Part shown: positions 8,882 to 36,534 of the stretch, piece after piece
How the letters are laid out: each line of letters starts with the position of its first letter
Numbering within the stretch: position 1 is the first letter of the stretch
Origin: a virus
Strand: one strand, 5' to 3'
Virus record (IMG/VR): IMGVR_UViG_3300025646_000152
Location: 1 to 36,534 of that record
DNA length: 36,534 bases
The notes under the pieces: generated by a model
What the model was told of the DNA's origin: nothing
What the model saw: only the letters and a program-made list of their open reading frames with translations
Databases searched by the model: none
Translations under genes and position numbers: made by a program

Positions 8882-11800
8882 TGGGCCTTCTTGACAGGAC
8901 GAGAAGCTCTGGGAGTGGTGCTTCGTATGGCCAGTCAAACAGGTTTAACATCCCTACCCCGGAGCCAGTAGATCCAAACGACTGGAACATTTCCCCATCG
9001 TCCAACAGTCTAAACGTTGGGACACCTCGTCGGTCTAGCAGCCAGTCAACCCCGTGGGAAGACAGGGGGTTTCCTGAGCGTGTAGCGTATGACGCACTCG
9101 CTCCTGGATCTGGGATCGCTGGGGTAAGACCAGGATACCTCTCAACTCAGACAAACGCTTACAGGACCCCAGGACTTGATTTATCAGGGGCAGCTCCGGT
9201 GGCCGCTTCTGGGCTTGAGACTGCCTTTAAGGCTCCGGGATATGCCGCCGAGCGTCCGATCGCTGCCGTCAACATGATTACTAGGGGCCAGGGAGAAAAG
9301 GGAGCAATTGACGTTGCGTCCGATATCATTCGTGCCACTCCATTGTTAAATGAGCTAGTTGGTGGATTTGGCAACTTCTTAAATGGAAACGCTCAGACAG
9401 CGTTTATTAATTCCTTTACAGCTTCAACCTTGCTTCAATATCGAAAAGATATTGAAGCCGGGAACCTGTCTATGAAAACTACAGTTGCCAATCCAAGCGG
9501 TGGGTTTCAAACACTTGGAGAGTTTATAACCAGCGTTAAGAAAAAGGGATTTACCGACCAGGATATTTCTGATCTTTTTGCCGGGAAAAAGGGAACGTTT
9601 GATTTTGGAGACAGGGAAAAAGGCTACATGATCTCGGACAACGGGATTGTGGATATTGGCCTGCAAGTTCTCTTGGATCCAACTCTTCTTCTTAGTGCTC
9701 CCGTTAAGTTATTGTGGACAGGCGCAAAGACACTTACTGGTGGCTTTAAGGCTGCTCAAATCTTTACCGGCGCAGCTAAGACTGCTCCAATCCTTAATAA
9801 GGCAGCGGAGTCCGCACATGCCGTATCGAACGCGTGGCAGACTGGCTCGATGGCAGTTGGAAACAATGCTTACCGACTAACGCTACCTGGTTATCGCACG
9901 TCAATCAAAGAGGCAATTACTGGTACCAGGATTGGCACTACTGCAGAAGTTGCCGGTGGAATTCTCAAGGGAGCCGCAAAGTCCTACGGACGCGCACTTA
10001 CTGGCCGCGTCACATATAAGGGCTACACCCCAAGCCTGTACCAGAAATACCTTATCTCTTCCACCGCGTTCACCGCAGGTCAGGCCGGTCTTGGCGCTGC
10101 AACCGAGCTGATTGCCAATGGCGATGAGGACAACTTCTTTGTTGGCGGCCTCTACAAGTTTATCAATGACCTTGAGGAGGAGAAGCCTCTTTCCGACAAG
10201 TACCTTGCATGGAACGTTCTTTCTGCATGGAAGTACCCGTATCGAGCGGTAACATCGTCTGCTAAGGGTGCGACTGTTGGCAAAGTTCAGACTGAATTCC
10301 GAAGACTATATTCTATTGACCGAGCGCTAATCATGCGCTTGTCAGACGATATGCCAAATGCGAATAAGTCAAAGTATTCTGCTCGAGTTGCATACGTCAA
10401 AGAGAGATTTGGCGGAGACTACCCATGGAACTCATTTAAGGCGCAGATTCTCCGGTACGTTGCTTTCCACGGATCTGAAGTCCACAAGGTTAATGGTATT
10501 GCCCCATCCCTTGGTGACGCCTACAGGGTCACTCCGGGGAGCATGCCATCCTATGCAATGCACGGTGAGATGCTTTCAAAAAATGTTGATGATCACCTTG
10601 CACGACTTATTGACGAAGGGCAAATTCCCCCGGCCGCAGTTGACGAAGCAGTTGACGCATGGGTTGCAAACCTTCGAGGGGTAGAGGAGCTTACGGGCGG
10701 CGTACAGGCTAGGGTTTCTGGATCTGGAATCATTGACAACTGGGTAAGGTTCCTTCCTCTTGCCGAGCGTGTCTGGGCAACCGGAGACAATTACGGAAAG
10801 GTTGTTCTTCGAAACTTTGATGGCGTATTTGCCAAGGAGCATTGGCTCGGTTTACGAGCGGAGCTTTCTGCTGCGGCTGTTAATGGAAAGATTAGCGCAT
10901 CAAACCTGCAAAGAATTATCCAGGACAACTCCGCAGTCCTTAGCCCTGAATCTGCCCAGAATGCAAACGTATGGCGAGAGTACCTACTCCGTGATGCTGA
11001 CGAAACTTTTGACAACCTTGACTCCATTATCCAGAAAGAACTTGCTGAAGCCCCAACCCTCAATGAGCTGACCGGGCCATGGGGCGCACGAGAAGCTGCT
11101 GCCCCTGTAGATGACCTTGTAGTTCCCCGAGGACCTGTCAAAGCTGACGGAAGTCCGGATCTTGACTGGTCTCCAGATGTCACAGAAATCTTCGTCTCAA
11201 GATTCCGAGATAATATTAAAGCTCGCGTTGGACTTGAAGGAGATTTGAGCGTACAGCAGGCTCTTTCCGTTCGGGCAAACGAAACAGTTGCCGTGTACGA
11301 ACAGAACATTGGCAAGCATCTTACTGACCACGGGTACACCGTAGTAACCTCCAAGCCCGTTATAGGGGTCTGGCAAAAGAGCGCAGAGCCGTCGATGTAT
11401 ATTGCCCTACCTTCCAGGGGGGCCAAGAACCCAGCCGACGCGGGAGACCTTTCCAAGGTTTTGAAGGGTCCTCGAGAGGCTGCTGTCATTGCGTTAAGAG
11501 GCGGCAGCAAGGTCTTTGACGATCAGCAAGATGCCGTCCTCTTAGTGCTTTCAGACGAATTACGAAGATCTGCAAATTTCAAGCCAAACTACCACAGGAT
11601 GACCTTCTCTATTGGACGCGCAATGAGCGGCGAAGAATCCCAAAAAATTGTCGACGCTATTGCGGATTCCTACGGGCCTATCGGGTCAACTATCGATCGC
11701 GAAGCAGGTACCATCCAGATCATGGCAAAGACTGCCGACCTGAGCGGGCTTAAGGCCCGGGGGAGGACACTTGTCCTTGCAAAGGCAATCTCGGAGGTCA

Positions 11801-14800
11801 CTGGTGGTTCGTCCCCGACAACGAGGGTCGAGGGCGTGTATGCTGAGCTTATTGTTAACGACCTCAAGGGTGAGGCCGTATCATATTTAGGGAAGCCGGA
11901 GGTAACAGTCAGTGGAATTGAACAAGCAGCAACCAACGGAATTAACACAGGAGACGCAAGATTCTTCAGAGCCCTTGGGGACTCTGCCGAACTTCGTCCT
12001 GCCGGAATGGTGGCCGACGGAACAGGAACTGCAGGCCTCGCTGGAGCCGAAGACAGAGTCTTCCGAGGAACCGCTGGTGACCTTGATCGTCCCTTCTCCC
12101 CGTCCAACTTCTCGTCGGTAACAAAAAGTCTTTCTAAGGAGACACCGGGTACGCCGGAATACCAGGCGCTTCAAGACGAAGTTCTCGATGAACTGTCCAG
12201 GGTTGTAACTCCAGCCGAAAAGCAGCGTGTTCTTGGGGCTCTTGGGTCTGACATTTCTAGGCTTCAGAGAACCACTGAATCCGCGCGTATCCGCGCGGCA
12301 GAGGAGATGGCCGAGCAGCAAGCTTCGCGAGTCAGTGAATTTTCTAAGGGGGTCAAGCAAGCCTTCAACACGAGCGACGAAGAAGCAAATGCGCTTGCCG
12401 AGTTGTGGGACGCAGCGATGCGGTCCGAAGCTGCGGTCACTGGCCGCACAGTCAAGGATGTATACGACAGCGTGCTCTACGGCGTCATGCGTGGTGGTGA
12501 CGTAAACCCAGATGCCCTATTCGCCAAAGAGTCTGCAGTCCTTGCTGATAAGTTTGCCCGGGCAAAGACGCCTGAAGGTCTTGAGCGCGCCATCCAGGCA
12601 GCGACAGAATTTAGGCCGACCGACGACATGGTGGCTCTTGGGAAAAAGCTAAAGGACGAAAGCCTATCGGGGTATCATCCAGTTGAGGTCATCCCCGGAA
12701 GCTCGCTCAACCCTGGTGCCACAGACATTGCACTTCCGGGAGGGATGGAGTTCCTTGCAAACCCTGCCCCCTATTCGTTGGCAGACGAGGTTGTTATTCG
12801 CTCGCAGGGAATTGTCCCGTCAATGCTGCCAGATCAAATGCGATTCCAGCTTTACAGCAAGCTTTGGGCCGGAAAAACCGTAGACTTCTCTGACCCAGTC
12901 GATCTTGTGAACCGGATCTCATTTGCTCTTACAAGCGCAAACAAAACAGCGTTGCCAATTAATGAAGCTCAGTACATGGTCATTAGGGCAAGGGACCTTG
13001 ACGATGTTGGGCAGATGGCCTCGTTCGTTCGTAAGGCGCGAGATCGAGGCGTTGCCGATAAGGACATGGGGCGAGAGATTATGCGGCACTACCGCATGTA
13101 TCTTCCAGAGTCCGAAATCTCCAAGTATCCAACCGCGCCTGGGGCAGACCCAAAGTTCCGTCAGGAAAACCTTCGAAAACTTGTTGGGCCTGATGGATAC
13201 TTCCCAAACCCAGACATTCGTATCGGTTCAACTAACCAGACGCAGGCGTACCAGCGCATTGCCATGATCTCTGAGTTTGCTGATTCCAACCCAAGCTGGT
13301 TTACTATTCGCGCAGGAGAGACTGCAGAGAATCTAGCTGACCGACTTCTGATGATCAAGGGGGTTGGGGTAAAAGTCGGAAACTTTGCTGTTGAGCTTGG
13401 TCAGCCAACCACTTTGAATCGCGGCACCATTGACCTGCAAATGTCTCTTGACCTGTTCAAGGCAGCAGAGCAAAAGGGCGACCTCGCTGCACTTGTCGAA
13501 CGGCTTAATGCTGTCCCAGGAGGCAAGGCATACGCCGACACCATGGTTAAGGCGCTCCGGGGCGAGGCAGAAACGGTTAACGCACCATTCCGATCTCTTG
13601 GCGTTAGGGCGAAGATGTCTGACGAACTTGAGCGTGCATACTCGGAGATTCCGGAAAGCATCCGAACACCTCGCAAGGACATCCCCGTTTACGGAGAAAG
13701 TCCAGTGCAGGTCATGGACGAGTACCTCGGCGCCCTCCAGGCCGCAGAGGCAGCGGCTATTCCGGGACTTGCAAACGTTGGTCGCGGTGCATATCAATGG
13801 TTCCGATGGGACGCCTTCCGTGGCAAGGTCGAACCACATTCGCTGCTCTACAAGAACGCAAACAAGCTTCCACGAGCAGACTTCAATGACGTCCAGAACG
13901 GCCTCGATACCTTGCGGGCTGCAGGATTCACAAGGCCAACGGATGCCGTACAGGCGTTCAACCCAAACCTTCTCTCCAAATACTTTAAGAAGGATGGTGA
14001 GAAGGTCATTGGGTCGACCGAGTTCCTCGAGAATGGCCGCGCACTTATTAAGGGGTTTGAGGGTTCGAGCTGGACTACTGCAACCCATGAGTTTGCCCAC
14101 GTATTCCGTGGCACCCTCCTTAAGGGTGAGGCCCTGGAGGCTGCATCTAAGTGGGCCGGGGCCAAGCTTGACGATTCTGGTCGGTACGTGTGGACGCGCG
14201 CGCAGGAAGAGAAGTTTGCCGACGCGTTTAACGTGTGGCTCAGAAAGGGTAAGGCACCGATCAAGACCCTTGTGCCAGTATTTGAAAAGTTCCGTCAGTG
14301 GCTCCTTGGGCTATATGATCGCGTTAGTGGCGGCGTCTATAAGTTCTCCGACCTCAAGGGCAATAGGCTGAACCCGGAAATTGAAGCTGCGTTTGAAAGC
14401 TTGTTCCGGCGCGGCGATGATGCAGTTATCTCTCCACGAAACAAGGATCAGGAAAGCCTACTTAATATCCTGTCCAGGATGGAAGACGACCTTAAAGGAA
14501 GTGCCGGCCAGAAGGATGAGGCTCTTGCAAATGTAGCTAAGGACGCCGAGGTTGAGAAGCTTGTTCCAATGCCTCGATGGCATCCAAGCATGAAGGGAGT
14601 TGACCAAGACCTCCAGCTCCAGCTTGCCGGTCTTGGCGCTGACGTTATCAGCAAGGGCAAGTACACGCTTTCTGAGGCTCCAGGCCTTGCAATCCCTCCG
14701 GCTCCTGGCCAGGGATATATCGCACGAGTCACACAGACGAGGACTGGGCTTTATGACTCAATGATTCTTGACAATCCAATTGTATCGGGCCCGTTGCGGT

Positions 14801-23267: not shown

Positions 23268-24419
23268 GTGCGCTATATCATCATCCTCCTCCTGCTGGCA
23301 CTGCCAGCTCAGGCGTATGCCCTAGACAGCACAGACCAGTGGGACCAGCAGGTTGACTCCAACGGCACAATCACGCTGACCGATGGATCAATCCTGATTG
23401 AGGGCAGCAATAATGCTGGTCCTGAGTACCCGTGGCAGAACACGGTGACCGGCTTGACGACTGATTCGTCCATTGGCGAGACGGTCACCTTTGACTGGGC
23501 GTACTGGACGACTGATGGTGCCTTCTACGATCGCGCACAGATGCTGCTCGATGAGAGCTGGACTGACCTCGCGATCTGGGATCAGGCTGGCTACAACCCG
23601 CTGCAACAGAGCGGCAGCCAGATCGTCTACATCGCGGCTGGCGGCCTGTTCGGATTCCGGATTATGAGCACGGACTCGTGCTGCGGGGCTGGCTTTCTTC
23701 AGATCACAAACACAACCTGGGTAGTAGGCCCAGCGCCAACACCAAGCCCGACGCCGGATCCTACACCGACGCCAACGCCGGAGCCATCTGTTGATCCATC
23801 TCCAGAGCCGAGCCCAACGCCAGAGCCTACGCCCGAACCGACGCCGACGCCGGAACCTTCGCCGACGCCTGAGCCAACTCCGGAGCCTACGCCAGAGCCA
23901 ACTCCTGATCCAACTCCTGAACCGACTCCAGAGCCTGAGCCCTCGGTAGAGCCAGAGCCGGAGCCAAGTGAAGAACCAGAGCCGACTCCCGAGCCCGAAG
24001 AGACGCCCGAGCCAGAGCCTTCAGAGGAACCTGAGCCGAGTCCTGATCCTACTGACGAGCCTAGCCCTGAGCCTGAGCCTAGCGTTGAGCCTTCTCCTGA
24101 GCCAACTGACGAACTGCTAGGTGTAGAGGAAGCGGTTGAGGAAATTGCGGAAGCATTTGGAGAGGCTGCCGAACAAGTTGCCGAAGTATTCGGCGCATCA
24201 TTTGAAGCGATATTAAACATTGGAGAAATCGGAAAGGACTTAGACCCCGAGGAGAAAGAGGAGGCGCAACCTGTCGCGGTTGCGGTGGTCATTAGCCAAG
24301 TCGCAAGCGCTGCGGTATCTGCAGCAATGGCGAGGGCCGGTGGCACAGGAGGAGGGGGTCCAGTAGGGGGACCGTCATCTTCATCCAGCTCTTCTAGTAG
24401 AAAGGGGAACAAGTCTTGA
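23268..24419 (+). CDS. Secreted Pro/Glu/Thr-repeat protein with C-terminal hydrophobic segment
   Basis: A 383-residue protein with GTG start and CCGGAGGG just upstream. Residues 1-18 are a clear signal peptide ([18 protein letters not shown], cleavage likely before LD). A 130-residue beta domain follows, with a Cys pair (DSCCGAG). Then comes about 125 residues of degenerate TPEP/SPEP/PEPE repeats, an acidic helix ([22 protein letters not shown]), a hydrophobic segment ([21 protein letters not shown]) and a Gly/Ser tail. It resembles a surface protein on a rigid stalk. It is just upstream of the lysis genes, so a lysis or envelope role is possible; function unknown. Confidence 0.7.
23732..24114 (+). 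repeat. Degenerate tandem repeat encoding Pro-Glu-Pro-Thr/Ser stalk
   Basis: About 380 bp of imperfect 6- to 15-bp units (CCNGAGCCNACN) encoding TPEP, SPEP, DPTPEP and PEPE units. Synonymous third bases vary widely, so selection appears to act on the peptide rather than the DNA. The unit number is likely to vary by slippage or recombination. Confidence 0.85.
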
Positions 24420-33548: not shown

Positions 33549-33829
33549 GACTGACCACCCTTCTTGCTCTTCTTCTTGGGGTTCTGAATCTCGTACACGG
33601 CAGCCTTCACGCTACGCGACACGAGTTCATCGTGGCAGATCTCGCATAGTCCGGTGTACCAGAGCCCATCAAGGTCTGGCATGCCACACTCCTTGCACGG
33701 ATTGTCTTCTGCCTCCTCAACGACCTTCTTCTCCAGCGCATCAGCGATGGCCTTGTTGGTCTTGTCGCTTGCTCCGATCACCACGATCTCAAACCCCAGT
33801 GCCGGTACGTTCAGCTTCCTTGTGCTCAT
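33545..33829 (-). CDS. Small zinc-binding protein with basic tail
   Basis: A 94-residue protein. An N-terminal strand-helix (LGFEIVVIGASDKTNKAIADALEKKV) is followed by CKECGMPD and CEICHDEL (two Cys pairs, zinc-ribbon-like) and a basic tail (NPKKKSKKGG). The basic tail suggests nucleic-acid contact. The start overlaps the preceding 31-residue gene by one base (TGATG). Confidence 0.6.
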   Translation of the reverse strand: MSTRKLNVPALGFEIVVIGASDKTNKAIADALEKKVVEEAEDNPCKECGMPDLDGLWYTGLCEICHDELVSRSVKAAVYEIQNPKKKSKKGGQS

Positions 33830-33924
33830 CAGAGCACCTCCTTCCCTAGTCCACTTAGGATCAAGGCCGCGAAGATAATCAACGCTAGTAGCCTCATGCG
33901 CTTTGTGTCCTGTTCATACTCCAT
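33829..33924 (-). CDS. 31-residue membrane peptide
   Basis: A 31-residue ORF with GGGGAG seven bases before its ATG and a stop overlapping the next start. The product has a charged start (MEYEQDTKRMR), one hydrophobic helix (LLALIIFAALILSGLG) and a short end. It is the first cistron released downstream of ribozyme 1, 29 bases after the ribozyme, and leads the seven-gene block that has no internal ribozymes. Confidence 0.55.
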   Translation of the reverse strand: MEYEQDTKRMRLLALIIFAALILSGLGKEVL

Positions 33925-33951
33925 GTGTGTTCTCCCCTGTTCTCAAGGTGT

Positions 33952-34010
33952 CTGCCTCATCAGCCCCGGGAGACTATCCCCGGAGGACGCCCCGAAGGGC
34001 GTTTCGGCTA
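33952..34010 (-). ncRNA. Hammerhead ribozyme 1 (type II)
   Basis: Read on the minus strand: UAGCC then GAA, stem III ACGCCC-UUCG-GGGCGU (6 bp), GUC, stem I CUCCGG / CCGGGG (one G-U pair) around GGAUAGUCUC, then CUGAUGA and GGC. GCC pairs with GGC as the open stem II, which makes it type II. Every core nucleotide is present. Cleavage is predicted between 33986 and 33985. The stop codon UAG of gene 34008-34229 is the first part of the element, and the next gene starts 29 bases after it. Confidence 0.95.
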
Positions 34011-34229
34011 CCAGACTTCGCTCTTCTTGGTCTGGCTCTTCTCAGCGTAGTGAGCGCGCAGTCGCTCGTCAATCCTCATCTTGATCTCGTCGCCGATCAC
34101 CCATCCGGTAACGATCGCACCGACCGTACCGAAGAGGACCAGAACAGAGAGCCCAAGGTGGCCATACACGGCGTACGCCACCGCTGCCGCCACCGTGGCG
34201 AGCAGGTATGTTGCGATAAACTCCTTCAC
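34008..34229 (-). CDS. Two-helix membrane protein
   Basis: I choose GTG at 34227-34229, six bases after GAGGT; upstream frame is shadow. The 73-residue product has two hydrophobic helices (FIATYLLATVAAAVAYAVYG and LSVLVLFGTVGAIVTGWVIG) and a basic cytoplasmic-type tail (KMRIDERLRAHYAEKSQTKKSEVW). It follows gene 34231-34503 after one base and shares its ribozyme-bounded segment. Its TAG stop forms part of stem II of ribozyme 1. Confidence 0.6.
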   Translation of the reverse strand: MKEFIATYLLATVAAAVAYAVYGHLGLSVLVLFGTVGAIVTGWVIGDEIKMRIDERLRAHYAEKSQTKKSEVW

Positions 34230-34230
34230 G

Positions 34231-34503
34231 TTAAACCTCCATCTCTTGCATGCGGGCTGCGTACTCAACGCTGCCCTTCGTGCCTGCTTTGACCTCGTAC
34301 CGGGACGGCACGTAGTTGCCCCAGTAGTCGGTGTGTCCGCTCTCGCCAAGGATGCAGATCCCTGCCTCGATGGCGTACGCGGCTGCTCGCCCGACCGATC
34401 CCTGCATGCGCCATGCCTGCCCGGTATCGATCAACTCCTGCAGCGCCTCGACCGGATCAGCGGCCTCTTCGCGCAGGTACTTCAGTGTGTTCTCCGTGAA
34501 CAT
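34231..34503 (-). CDS. Small actinophage-type conserved protein
   Basis: A 90-residue protein with Shine-Dalgarno AGGAG nine bases upstream. The text PVEALQELIDTGQAWRMQGSVGRAAAYAIEAGICILGE, DYWGNYVPSRYEVKAGTKGSVEY resembles a family of unknown function I associate with actinobacteriophage accessory regions. The product is helical in the first half. It is the first cistron released downstream of ribozyme 2. Confidence 0.65.
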   Translation of the reverse strand: MFTENTLKYLREEAADPVEALQELIDTGQAWRMQGSVGRAAAYAIEAGICILGESGHTDYWGNYVPSRYEVKAGTKGSVEYAARMQEMEV

Positions 34504-34527
34504 GTTCTCTCCTGTTCTCGTGAGGGT

Positions 34528-34587
34528 CTGCCTCGTCAGTGCCGGGAGACTATCCCCGGCAGACCGGGCCGTGCCCGGTTTCGGCTA
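34528..34587 (-). ncRNA. Hammerhead ribozyme 2 (type II)
   Basis: Minus strand: UAGCC, GAA, stem III ACCGGGC-ACG-GCCCGGU (7 bp), GUC, stem I UGCCGG / CCGGCA around GGAUAGUCUC, then CUGACGA and GGC. It is the only copy with C at the variable seventh core position (CUGACGA), which still fits the CUGANGA consensus. Cleavage is predicted between 34562 and 34561. Its stem-I loop is identical to that of ribozyme 1 while stems differ by compensating changes. The UAG is the stop of gene 34585-34884. Confidence 0.95.
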
Positions 34588-34884
34588 TTGCTGATCCTCC
34601 TCCAGTGCCTGCTCAGCGAATGAGACCTTGATCTCAAGGCGCTCTACCCAAGAGTATCCACCCGCGTAGGCTTTTTCAAGACTCTGGATGAACTCCTGAA
34701 CATAGGCGTCGTACGCCATGTCGTCGTTGGTGTGGCGCGATACGGTGAGCCCTGCTTGCAGCAGGTCAACCTCGTACGGCGCATCGCCCTCGCGAGAAGT
34801 CCGGTAGATTACGTCCACGCCATGCTCGTCGCGCAGCGTCTGGATACGGTCCCAAAGTGCCTGTCCCGGCTTGTGGGTGCTCAC
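34585..34884 (-). CDS. Hypothetical protein
   Basis: The start is GTG at 34882-34884 (GTGA overlap with the preceding stop) behind GGAGGACG, giving 99 residues. The pattern is mixed: LWDRIQTLRDEHGVDVIYRTS, APYEVDLLQAGLTVSRHT, then an acidic helix (YVQEFIQSLEKAYAGGYSWVERLEIKVSFAEQALEEDQQ). No family is recognised. It is coupled to gene 34881-35129, and its stop is inside ribozyme 2. Confidence 0.6.
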   Translation of the reverse strand: MSTHKPGQALWDRIQTLRDEHGVDVIYRTSREGDAPYEVDLLQAGLTVSRHTNDDMAYDAYVQEFIQSLEKAYAGGYSWVERLEIKVSFAEQALEEDQQ

Positions 34885-35129
34885 TTGACGTCCTCCAGAT
34901 AGGTGGCCCAAGCATCAATGCGTGTTGCCTTGAGATCAAGGCTCTCGCAGTCAACGCCATCCTCAGCCGTCTCAGCGACCCTGTAGGCCTCACTCTTCTG
35001 GTCATCTCCCAGATCACCGATTACGGCCTCAAGGGCCTCATCGGCTTGGTCGGCCAACTCCACGGCAACCAAGTAGGCCTGCTCGGCCTGTGCTGCCAGT
35101 TCAAGTGCGAGCGTGCGCTTGTCCTTCAT
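34881..35129 (-). CDS. Small acidic helical protein
   Basis: An 82-residue protein behind AGGAGGAG. It is a nearly continuous acidic helix (LALELAAQAEQAYLVAVELADQADEALEAVIGDLGDD) with a short second part (LDLKATRIDAWATYLEDVK). Acidic helical phage proteins of this size include DNA mimics, but nothing specific supports that here. It is the first cistron released downstream of ribozyme 3. Confidence 0.6.
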   Translation of the reverse strand: MKDKRTLALELAAQAEQAYLVAVELADQADEALEAVIGDLGDDQKSEAYRVAETAEDGVDCESLDLKATRIDAWATYLEDVK

Positions 35130-35147
35130 GTTCTCCTCCTATGTGCC

Positions 35148-35204
35148 CTGCCTCATCAGTCGCAGTCGGGCTCGTCTGCGAGACCCCCGAAGGGGTTTCG
35201 GCTA
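35148..35204 (-). ncRNA. Hammerhead ribozyme 3 (type II)
   Basis: Minus strand: UAGCC, GAA, stem III ACCCC-UUCG-GGGGU (5 bp), GUC, stem I UCGCAG / CUGCGA around ACGAGCCCGA, then CUGAUGA and GGC. Cleavage is predicted between 35182 and 35181. UAG is the stop of gene 35202-35414. The start codon of gene 34881-35129 lies 20 bases downstream. Confidence 0.95.
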
Positions 35205-35414
35205 GTACTGACTGTTGATGTGATCCCAGTACTCCATCATCTTGTCGTGGCACTCATCGCATCGTTGCACTGGTACGTGCTTCCTGTCCCCGTAGAGACG
35301 CGGATAAACAGACTTGCTGCTCTTCTTGCACATGTCGCACCGCCGTGCCTCTTTGCGTGGCGCACTAGTCATGTTGAACCACTTTGGGTACTCAACGCGT
35401 TCTCGTTTCGCCAT
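35202..35414 (-). CDS. Small protein with two CxxC pairs
   Basis: The start is ATG at 35412-35414, six bases after AGGAGGT; 70 residues. RRCDMCKKSS and RCDECHDK (C26, C29, C52, C55) form a likely zinc-binding knuckle; the N-terminus is basic (MAKRERVEYPKW). It stands alone between ribozymes 4 and 3 and would be released as a single-gene mRNA. Its 5' leader (AGGAGGTTGGACATG) is identical to that of gene 35491-35721. Confidence 0.65.
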   Translation of the reverse strand: MAKRERVEYPKWFNMTSAPRKEARRCDMCKKSSKSVYPRLYGDRKHVPVQRCDECHDKMMEYWDHINSQY

Positions 35415-35434
35415 GTCCAACCTCCTGTTTTCAC

Positions 35435-35493
35435 CTGCCTCATCAGCACCGGTAGGTGAGTCCCGGTGGACGGCCCGAAGGCCGTTTCGGCTA
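35435..35493 (-). ncRNA. Hammerhead ribozyme 4 (type II)
   Basis: Minus strand: UAGCC, GAA, stem III ACGGCC-UUCG-GGCCGU (6 bp), GUC, stem I CACCGG / CCGGUG around GACUCACCUA, then CUGAUGA and GGC. Cleavage is predicted between 35469 and 35468. UAG is the stop of gene 35491-35721. The next start codon is 22 bases downstream. Confidence 0.95.
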
Positions 35494-35721
35494 GTAGATC
35501 TCTGGAACCTCAATCTCCTCGTAGGGCTTGAGCAGTTTCTCAAGCCGGTTGTTGAGTGCATCTGCCTGATCCTGAATCTTCGCCATCTTCTTCTCAATCT
35601 TCGCGAGTTCACTGCCTTCAGTCATCTCGTTGAAGTACTGAGTGAAGATCCCGCATGACCCTGCGATGGTCTGCACTTCCCGCAGTGCGAGTCGTGCCAG
35701 TGCGATCTGTCGCGTGTTCAT
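35491..35721 (-). CDS. Small coiled-coil protein
   Basis: The start is ATG at 35719-35721 behind AAGGAGGT; an upstream in-frame ATG falls inside ribozyme 5 and is rejected. The 76-residue product has a helix (TRQIALARLALREVQTIAGSCG) and a coiled coil (SELAKIEKKMAKIQDQADALNNRLEKLLKPYEEI). It stands alone between ribozymes 5 and 4. No family is recognised. Confidence 0.6.
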   Translation of the reverse strand: MNTRQIALARLALREVQTIAGSCGIFTQYFNEMTEGSELAKIEKKMAKIQDQADALNNRLEKLLKPYEEIEVPEIY

Positions 35722-35742
35722 GTCCAACCTCCTTGTGTGCGC

Positions 35743-35798
35743 CTGCCTCATCAGTCCCGGGTGGCGACTCCGGGAGACCCCCGAAGGGGTTTCGGCTA
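35743..35798 (-). ncRNA. Hammerhead ribozyme 5 (type II)
   Basis: Minus strand: UAGCC, GAA, stem III ACCCC-UUCG-GGGGU (5 bp, identical to ribozyme 3), GUC, stem I UCCCGG / CCGGGA around AGUCGCCAC, then CUGAUGA and GGC. Cleavage is predicted between 35776 and 35775. UAG is the stop of gene 35796-36014. The next start codon is 23 bases downstream. Confidence 0.95.
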
Positions 35799-36014
35799 GA
35801 AGTCCTGCTTGCCGATCGTGACTTCAAAGAAGCACGAACTGCAGAACTCCACGGTTTTTACACCGGTTTGCGAGTCTGGAAGCGGCACGTAGCATTCGTG
35901 CTGAATGCCGCCGGGCCGCTGCGACCCGAACGTGTGTGCACATCGTGCACAGTTGCCGGGCTTTGCGATCGTGCTCATTCGCTCTGGTACAAGCACGACG
36001 ATCTCCTCGCTCAT
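35796..36014 (-). CDS. Small Cys-rich zinc-binding protein
   Basis: The start is ATG at 36012-36014 behind AGGAGGT; 72 residues. NCARCAHTF (C22, C25) and FCSSCFFEV (C58, C61), with C41 between, suggest a zinc ribbon. It is the first gene of the leftward operon, bounded by ribozymes 6 and 5, and its message would be the earliest made. Confidence 0.65.
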   Translation of the reverse strand: MSEEIVVLVPERMSTIAKPGNCARCAHTFGSQRPGGIQHECYVPLPDSQTGVKTVEFCSSCFFEVTIGKQDF

Positions 36015-36033
36015 GATCAACCTCCTGCCCCAT

Positions 36034-36104
36034 GTCCTCATCAGCCGGCATGCGGGGCCCTACACGCCGGGACCGGCACGCCAGAAGGCGCACCGGTTTC
36101 GGTT
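36034..36104 (-). ncRNA. Hammerhead ribozyme 6 (type II, extended)
   Basis: Minus strand: AACC, GAA, an 11-bp stem III (ACCGGUGCGCC / GGCGUGCCGGU with two G-U pairs, loop UUCU), GUC, a long stem I (CCGGCGUG / CAUGCCGG plus inner G-C pairs), then CUGAUGA and GGACA. Cleavage is predicted between 36071 and 36070. It differs from the other five: longer stems I and III, stem II of only two canonical pairs next to the core, and no upstream gene or UAG. It lies in the operon leader, 21 bases before the first gene. Confidence 0.88.
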
Positions 36105-36284
36105 GGAGGTCCGTTCGTGTATTCACCTGTTCAGGGACTCTGGCCGGCTCCCCGGTGGCCTCTTGGCTCTGGGCTCTCCGGTCACCCCGGCTCCCTCGGC
36201 CTCACTGGCCCCGGTGCTCTCGCTCTGCTTGCGGCGATTCGCACCGGTTCGTCTGAGAGAAGAATGAACCCTGCGAATAGGCCT
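36105..36284 (-). other. Gene-free leader region of the leftward operon
   Basis: There is no credible gene on either strand; the open frames across it have the composition of shadows. It is GC-rich and contains repeats of CCGGCTCCC (36144 and 36187 regions) and CCCCGGTG (36152 and 36211 regions). On the minus strand it holds GACCUCC (36105-36111), complementary to the Shine-Dalgarno of the first gene. It is probably the 5' untranslated leader removed by ribozyme 6. Confidence 0.45.
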
Positions 36285-36362
36285 TGTCAAGGTAAGAGAT
36301 CTTAACAATTGCGTAACAATCGTGCTCGCTGTAACACTGGAAGAATAAGGTCTCTTAACAAT
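36285..36362 (-). promoter_or_regulatory. Repeat-bearing control region of the leftward operon
   Basis: TAAGNNNTCTTAACAAT occurs at 36293-36309 and 36346-36362 (17 bp, three mismatches, 53 bp apart), with related GTAACAAT at 36313-36320 and GTAACACT at 36331-36338. A minus-strand TTGACA (36285-36290) could be a -35 box, but the -10 at 17-18 bp is poor (TCATTC/CATTCT). I interpret the repeats as binding sites for a regulator, or replication iterons. Confidence 0.45.
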
Positions 36363-36534
36363 CCAGTGGTCGTGCTCAGCCCGGTGTGAGCGTGGCTTGG
36401 TGTGAGGATGGCTCAGGTTCATGGGCTGAATGTGAGGGCGTCTCACGTGGTTGTGGTGGGCTGCCGGTGGGCGTGGGGGGTGTATCCTCAGGTCCCACGA
36501 TCAGCACAGCCCCGGCCATCATCACCCCCCAAAG
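36363..36534. repeat. Non-coding right end with tandem GTGTGAG repeats
   Basis: A 16-bp unit occurs twice in tandem (36383-36398 and 36399-36414, three mismatches), with further TGTGAG at 36431. The rest is G/T-rich (GGGCGTGGGGGGTGTATCC). No gene or promoter is supported, and the window ends here. The repeats may belong to the same regulatory region or to an origin. Confidence 0.4.

Follow-up and report, generated by a model that had tools for sequence, protein, structure and literature searches.

Six type II hammerhead ribozymes interspersed among the genes of a phage operon, with a likely role in mRNA processing

The leftward operon and its surroundings

The window analysed here comprises positions 1–36,534 of IMG/VR record IMGVR_UViG_3300025646_000152, which is the whole of that record; outside the operon described below it carries rightward genes that include those for a terminase, a major capsid protein and a DnaB-like helicase, identifying it as a tailed phage contig. 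Near-identical DNA was not found in named phages, terminase relatives were not confirmed in any genome contigs, and the phage collection returned only a 24%-identical match. The ribozyme array spans positions 36102–33950 of the minus strand, where the order of features in the leftward direction is leader, E1, A, E2, B, E3, C, E4, D and D2, E5, two further genes, E6 and F (E1–E6 being ribozymes and the remainder cistrons). There are six hammerheads within 2.15 kb, all on one strand and each ahead of a cistron group: a clustered array, placed as an earlier note on this DNA had described it.

The leader or regulatory region upstream of E1 (36114–36524, minus strand) is 95% identical at the DNA level in a related contig, L228. 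A protein gene was considered for this region and rejected, as its frames are not kept in L228 despite the DNA identity, and the leader is probably non-coding. It contains two occurrences of ATTGTTAAGA, which are perhaps operators. No match to the sigma-70 consensus promoter was found upstream of the array, such that a single primary transcript is an assumption.

All of the cistrons lie on the minus strand. Cistron A (35796–36014) encodes a Cys-rich protein of 72 aa and has the sequence AGGAGG 6 nt upstream of its ATG; its product has neither a Pfam match nor a significant PHROG match. Cistrons B (35491–35721) and C (35202–35414) encode, respectively, a coiled-coil-like protein of 76 aa and a protein of 70 aa with two CxxC motifs. 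The stop codon of cistron D (35129–34881; 82 aa) overlaps the GTG start codon of D2 (34884–34585; 99 aa). Between E5 and E6 there are two cistrons: the first (34503–34231; 90 aa) is DUF7417-like, albeit below the cut-off, and corresponds to phrog_3908, and the second, which also starts with GTG (34229–34008; 73 aa), is membrane-like. Cistron F (33829–33924), the first gene past the last ribozyme, encodes a small hydrophobic protein of 31 aa. Overall, comparison of the array proteins (31–99 aa) with Pfam and PHROG gave no confident named function. Downstream of cistron F, further ribozyme-free genes are followed by an intrinsic terminator at the end of the minus-strand operon (31997–31966, minus strand; 14-bp stem and T-rich tail); this terminator was identified in a scan for the consensus, which detects no more sites of this type in the region than in shuffled sequence. 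Matches to suhB, NsiR1, Spot 42 and snoTBR17 in the window are all below the Rfam cut-off, and the first three of these overlap the terminator hairpin.

Two observations concern other parts of the window. At 23748–24114, ~250 bases match themselves at an offset of ~130 in relatives (65% identity), which corresponds to an internal repeat of the gene at 23268–24419. Additionally, ARAGORN calls a tRNA-Leu at 8968–9044 on the minus strand, inside a gene for a 2496-aa protein on the opposite strand; this call, which has no Rfam match at the cut-off, is probably spurious.

Structure and covariation of the six elements

The Rfam family Hammerhead_II (RF02276; gathering cut-off 37 bits) matches all six elements full length (1–66). 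The expectation in the earlier note that all of them would exceed the threshold was borne out for four, namely E2 (35740–35796; 46.5 bits), E3 (35431–35491; 45.4 bits), E5 (34526–34585; 58.8 bits) and E6 (33950–34008; 61.4 bits), whereas E4 (35145–35202; 32.0 bits, E = 0.0014) and E1, which lies in the 5' leader (36027–36102; 20.3 bits, E = 1.6), fall below it. A strict descriptor, specifying stem II, GAA, stem III, UH, stem I, CUGANGA and the return strand of stem II in that order with every helix formed, gives exactly six matches over both strands of the window, all of them in the array. Its null rate is one match per 4.2 million strand-bases in reversed or complemented DNA, and it has no match in 120 unrelated viral loci totalling 1.0 Mb.

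The catalytic core is complete in all six copies, each having CUGANGA, GAA and UH at the cleavage site, and cleavage is predicted 3' of C36071 (in the sequence GUC), C35776, C35469, C35182, C34562 and C33986 for E1 to E6, respectively. In every copy, stems I and III are closed by hairpins and a third helix of 2–3 bp is open; since this open helix is stem II (GCC…GGC in E2–E6 and CC…GG in E1), the previous assignment of the elements to type II is right. The most divergent copy is E1, where a stem II of just 2 bp is combined with a stem III of 11 bp and a stem I of 9 bp. In E2, stem III is capped by UUCG. Minimum free energy folds of E3 and E5 lack stem II, in calculations that ignore pseudoknots.

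The sequences of the stems differ between the six copies, and covariation among them was counted in a structure-based register, because a MAFFT alignment misaligns E1. Strands were exchanged among the copies in all 720 permutations: for the five core-adjacent pairs of each copy, the strands of stem III pair with their own partners in 30 of 30 cases against a permutation mean of 20, and those of stem I in 30 of 30 against a mean of 19, although these two results, obtained with a descriptor that already called for four or more pairs in each helix, measure the match of partners within copies and are not fully independent. The descriptor places no requirement on the loop I/3'-tail pseudoknot, which comprises 4–6 bp in every copy: GCCCC/GGGGC in E1, CGCC/GGCG in E2, UCACCU/AGGUGA in E3, GCCC/GGGC in E4, and GUCU/AGAC in both E5 and E6. 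The copies form 27 pairs with their own partners compared with 19 on swapping, a value attained solely by two equivalent permutations, as E5 and E6 share their pseudoknot. For stem I, stem III and the pseudoknot alike, own pairing is the best reachable value. The compensating changes that had been remarked on by eye are supported by the swap tests. Moreover, across 327 viral elements, among the matches listed, the pseudoknot has a mean of 4.15 bp with its own partner and 3.13 bp when shuffled.

Gene-edge placement and processing of the transcript

The ribozymes are fitted tightly between the stop codon of one cistron and the start codon of the next. In all five internal copies, stem II begins with the G of the upstream TAG (35798–35796 for E2, 35493–35491 for E3, 35204–35202 for E4, 34587–34585 for E5 and 34010–34008 for E6); E1 has no abutting upstream stop codon. 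On the other side, CUGANGA is followed by the next start codon at distances of 23, 26, 25, 23, 29 and 32 nt for E1 to E6, respectively. Viral contigs were scanned for the type II motif in two ways, once with a preceding TAG and once without, all counts being of the matches listed; because TAG was obligatory in the first search, only loci that the second was the first to detect entered the stop-codon statistics. Among the 133 viral elements obtained in this manner, the stop lies at −9 to −4 from GAAA in 53%, and within −30 to 0 in 81%, of those that have a usable one, and the median distance to the start codon is 30 nt. Both here and in the sampled viral contigs, the ribozymes fit exactly between stop codon and ribosome-binding site, which points to the production of separate mRNAs.

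We consider it likely that the transcript of this operon, which is bounded by a terminator, cleaves itself as it is made, yielding short mRNAs capped by hairpins at their ends. The operon runs leftward, consists of small accessory genes and is probably an early one; the ribozymes would act in its 5' leader and in five of the gaps between its cistrons. As the polymerase traverses each gap, the element would fold, with stems I and III closed, the open stem II formed over 2–3 bp and the pseudoknot joining loop I to the 3' tail, and would then cleave after GUC. The mRNAs between successive cuts would be about 295, 307, 287, 620 and 576 nt in length. Hammerhead cleavage leaves 5'-OH and 2',3'-cyclic phosphate ends. 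The upstream product would thus terminate just past its own stop codon in the stem III hairpin (UUCG-capped in several copies) and a 2',3'-cyclic phosphate, while the downstream product would begin with a 5'-OH and the stem I hairpin, followed by its own Shine–Dalgarno sequence and start codon. The resulting mRNAs would probably carry one or two cistrons, have protected ends and be shielded from adjacent untranslated sequence, an insulation that would let the operon acquire or shed gene cassettes with no disturbance to the remaining genes. Protection by the hairpins is suggested by analogy with hairpin-ended phage mRNAs; we likewise infer that these six copies cleave, that they do so during transcription, and that the phage benefits.

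Several features support a role in mRNA processing: the intact core with its copy-specific helices, the pseudoknots, the placement at gene edges, the terminator and the published cleavage of comparable arrays. The earlier proposal that type II hammerheads separate the cistrons of one operon, with RNA processing as their likely role, is supported. Counting against it are E1, given its 2-bp stem II and score of 20.3 bits, and the minimum free energy folds of E3 and E5. Moreover, neither the D/D2 pair nor the pair of cistrons between E5 and E6 has a ribozyme inside it, so processing would not be strictly per gene.

The abutting stop codons could alternatively reflect gating by translation, whereby a ribosome that terminates at the UAG sits over stem II and the GAA core and prevents the element from folding, with the consequence that cuts are made only at poorly translated upstream cistrons; the array would then sense translation rather than cutting everything. 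The shared G of the TAG in the five internal copies is consistent with this, as is the tendency, among the matches listed for viral elements at large, of the stop most often to abut stem II. However, simple genome packing yields the same placement, E1 has no upstream cistron, and about 47% of stops in the sample found without a stop demand lie outside −9 to −4; we, therefore, regard gating as unlikely. A broader proposal, in which translation-gated modular mRNA processing is combined with the use of ribozyme cores as cassette swap points across many phages, is likewise unlikely.

The related contig L228 is 94% identical to the window over 17.6 kb and has an array of five ribozymes. Cistron F is 100% identical in L228, and the gene after it is also shared (by protein match); homologues of cistrons A and D2 are 57% and 87% identical, respectively, the latter being located directly 3' of a ribozyme. 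The L228 array lacks cistrons B, C and D and carries other genes after its third ribozyme. The comparison shows cassette turnover within the array. The blocks of homology break in or at ribozymes, at window positions 35788, 35778 and 34590, and the fourth L228 element, E4' (~17613, minus strand), matches E5 of the window from stem I onwards, but its stem III is entirely different and its cleavage position is occupied by A instead of C, as though the 5' half had been exchanged. Over the arrays compared, ribozymes contain 23 of 59 alignment ends versus eight expected, an enrichment that is suggestive only, in view of redundant contigs and the bias due to conserved sequence. These breakpoints, together with the different genes of L228, would suit a reading in which the short shared cores are kept partly as recombination joints for swaps of small genes, with RNA cutting being secondary. 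We consider this improbable: there are few independent events, conserved ribozymes stretch alignments into themselves, and the retention of pseudoknots and cores would be left unexplained.

It is very improbable that the elements are mostly decayed or inactive motifs left behind by duplication and devoid of a role. The copies are related to one another and E1 is a weak match, as this would predict, but all of the core bases are kept, the helices and pseudoknot are maintained by covariation within copies, and the L228 orthologues retain both core and pairing, including E4' with its unrelated stem III. Finally, that the ribozyme ends feed the RNA ligase RtcB to give circular or spliced mRNAs is barely credible, even though the 5'-OH and 2',3'-cyclic phosphate ends would suit this enzyme: RtcB was found in none of 50 hammerhead-bearing contigs and none of 45 controls, giving no support for it as a phage-encoded partner. 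Furthermore, Perreault et al. sought spliced or circular products and found none (PMC3088659). One virus with type II hammerheads, Dulem virus 39, does encode RtcB: its locus (L233; PP511791.1, 46000–59751) carries the ligase and a RAGATH-27 RNA at 12460–13665 and 10033–10116, a pairing that may be due to chance, given the absence of RtcB from the 50 sampled contigs.

Relationship to other arrays and known systems

Arrays equal to or larger than this one are common in viral contigs and cultured Streptomyces phages. The descriptor finds at least 67 array regions of two or more elements, the largest having ten, although some of these are overlapping loci of one contig, and Rfam confirms between two and ten copies in each of fifteen records. 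Among cultured phages, Streptomyces phage Celia (MN062705) has ten copies by descriptor and nine by Rfam, and Streptomyces phage Alvy (NC_054669) about eleven by Rfam. In both of these Arquatrovirinae, as in the window, the type II hammerheads lie between small genes in the right arm and are encoded by the minus strand; they differ in having more copies over a longer region, and in a stem II of GGC/GCC rather than GCC/GGC. No terminase relative of the window was found among the Arquatrovirinae Streptomyces phages. In Alvy, two type II hammerheads follow one another directly, without an intervening gene (13396–13529 of locus L232, minus strand), the first having GUU at the cleavage site. With about ten copies each, these cultured phages make the role of such arrays accessible to standard infection experiments and mapping of 5' ends.

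Processing of the operon transcript into short mRNAs, the reading that we favour, has parallels of two kinds. In the early region of T7, host RNase III cuts the polycistronic early RNA between genes to give hairpin-ended mRNAs; there, the cutting is done by a host protein, whereas here the RNA would cut itself. Ribozymes have also reportedly been placed between cistrons by Liu et al. in 2022 for ribozyme-assisted polycistronic co-expression, yielding separate mRNAs; that system is engineered, whereas the array in the window is natural.

The closest counterparts are the clustered prophage hammerheads of Perreault et al. (2011), which flank single genes or gene blocks and for which processing into single-gene mRNAs was proposed (PMC3088659). 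The earlier note knew of no described equivalent, and that claim is, therefore, incorrect; a 2017 review repeats the point about clustered hammerheads and calls their role open, as has been the view since 2011. No later work on phage hammerhead arrays was found in the literature searched, most subscription journals being outside its reach. Relative to RF02276, the window elements share the open stem II permutation, the core, a pseudoknot (≥4 bp) linking loop I with the 3' tail, and the phage setting; they differ in that two of the six copies score below the cut-off and E1 has an 11-bp stem III with a 2-bp stem II. Pseudoknots of this kind matter for fast cleavage, and published tandem arrays have been found to cleave in vitro and, in one case, in vivo (PMC3088659). 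In the triple array at ardA of Agrobacterium tumefaciens, and in Azorhizobium caulinodans and Clostridium scindens, several hammerheads on one strand flank genes or blocks, as in the window, and mRNA processing has been proposed; cleavage has been demonstrated for those prophage arrays, whereas it is predicted here (PMC3088659). The window array differs from them in having six copies, all of type II, with one ahead of each cistron group. It is a clean example of the arrangement published in 2011, to which it adds a clean stop-to-start layout and cultured counterparts of similar or larger size.
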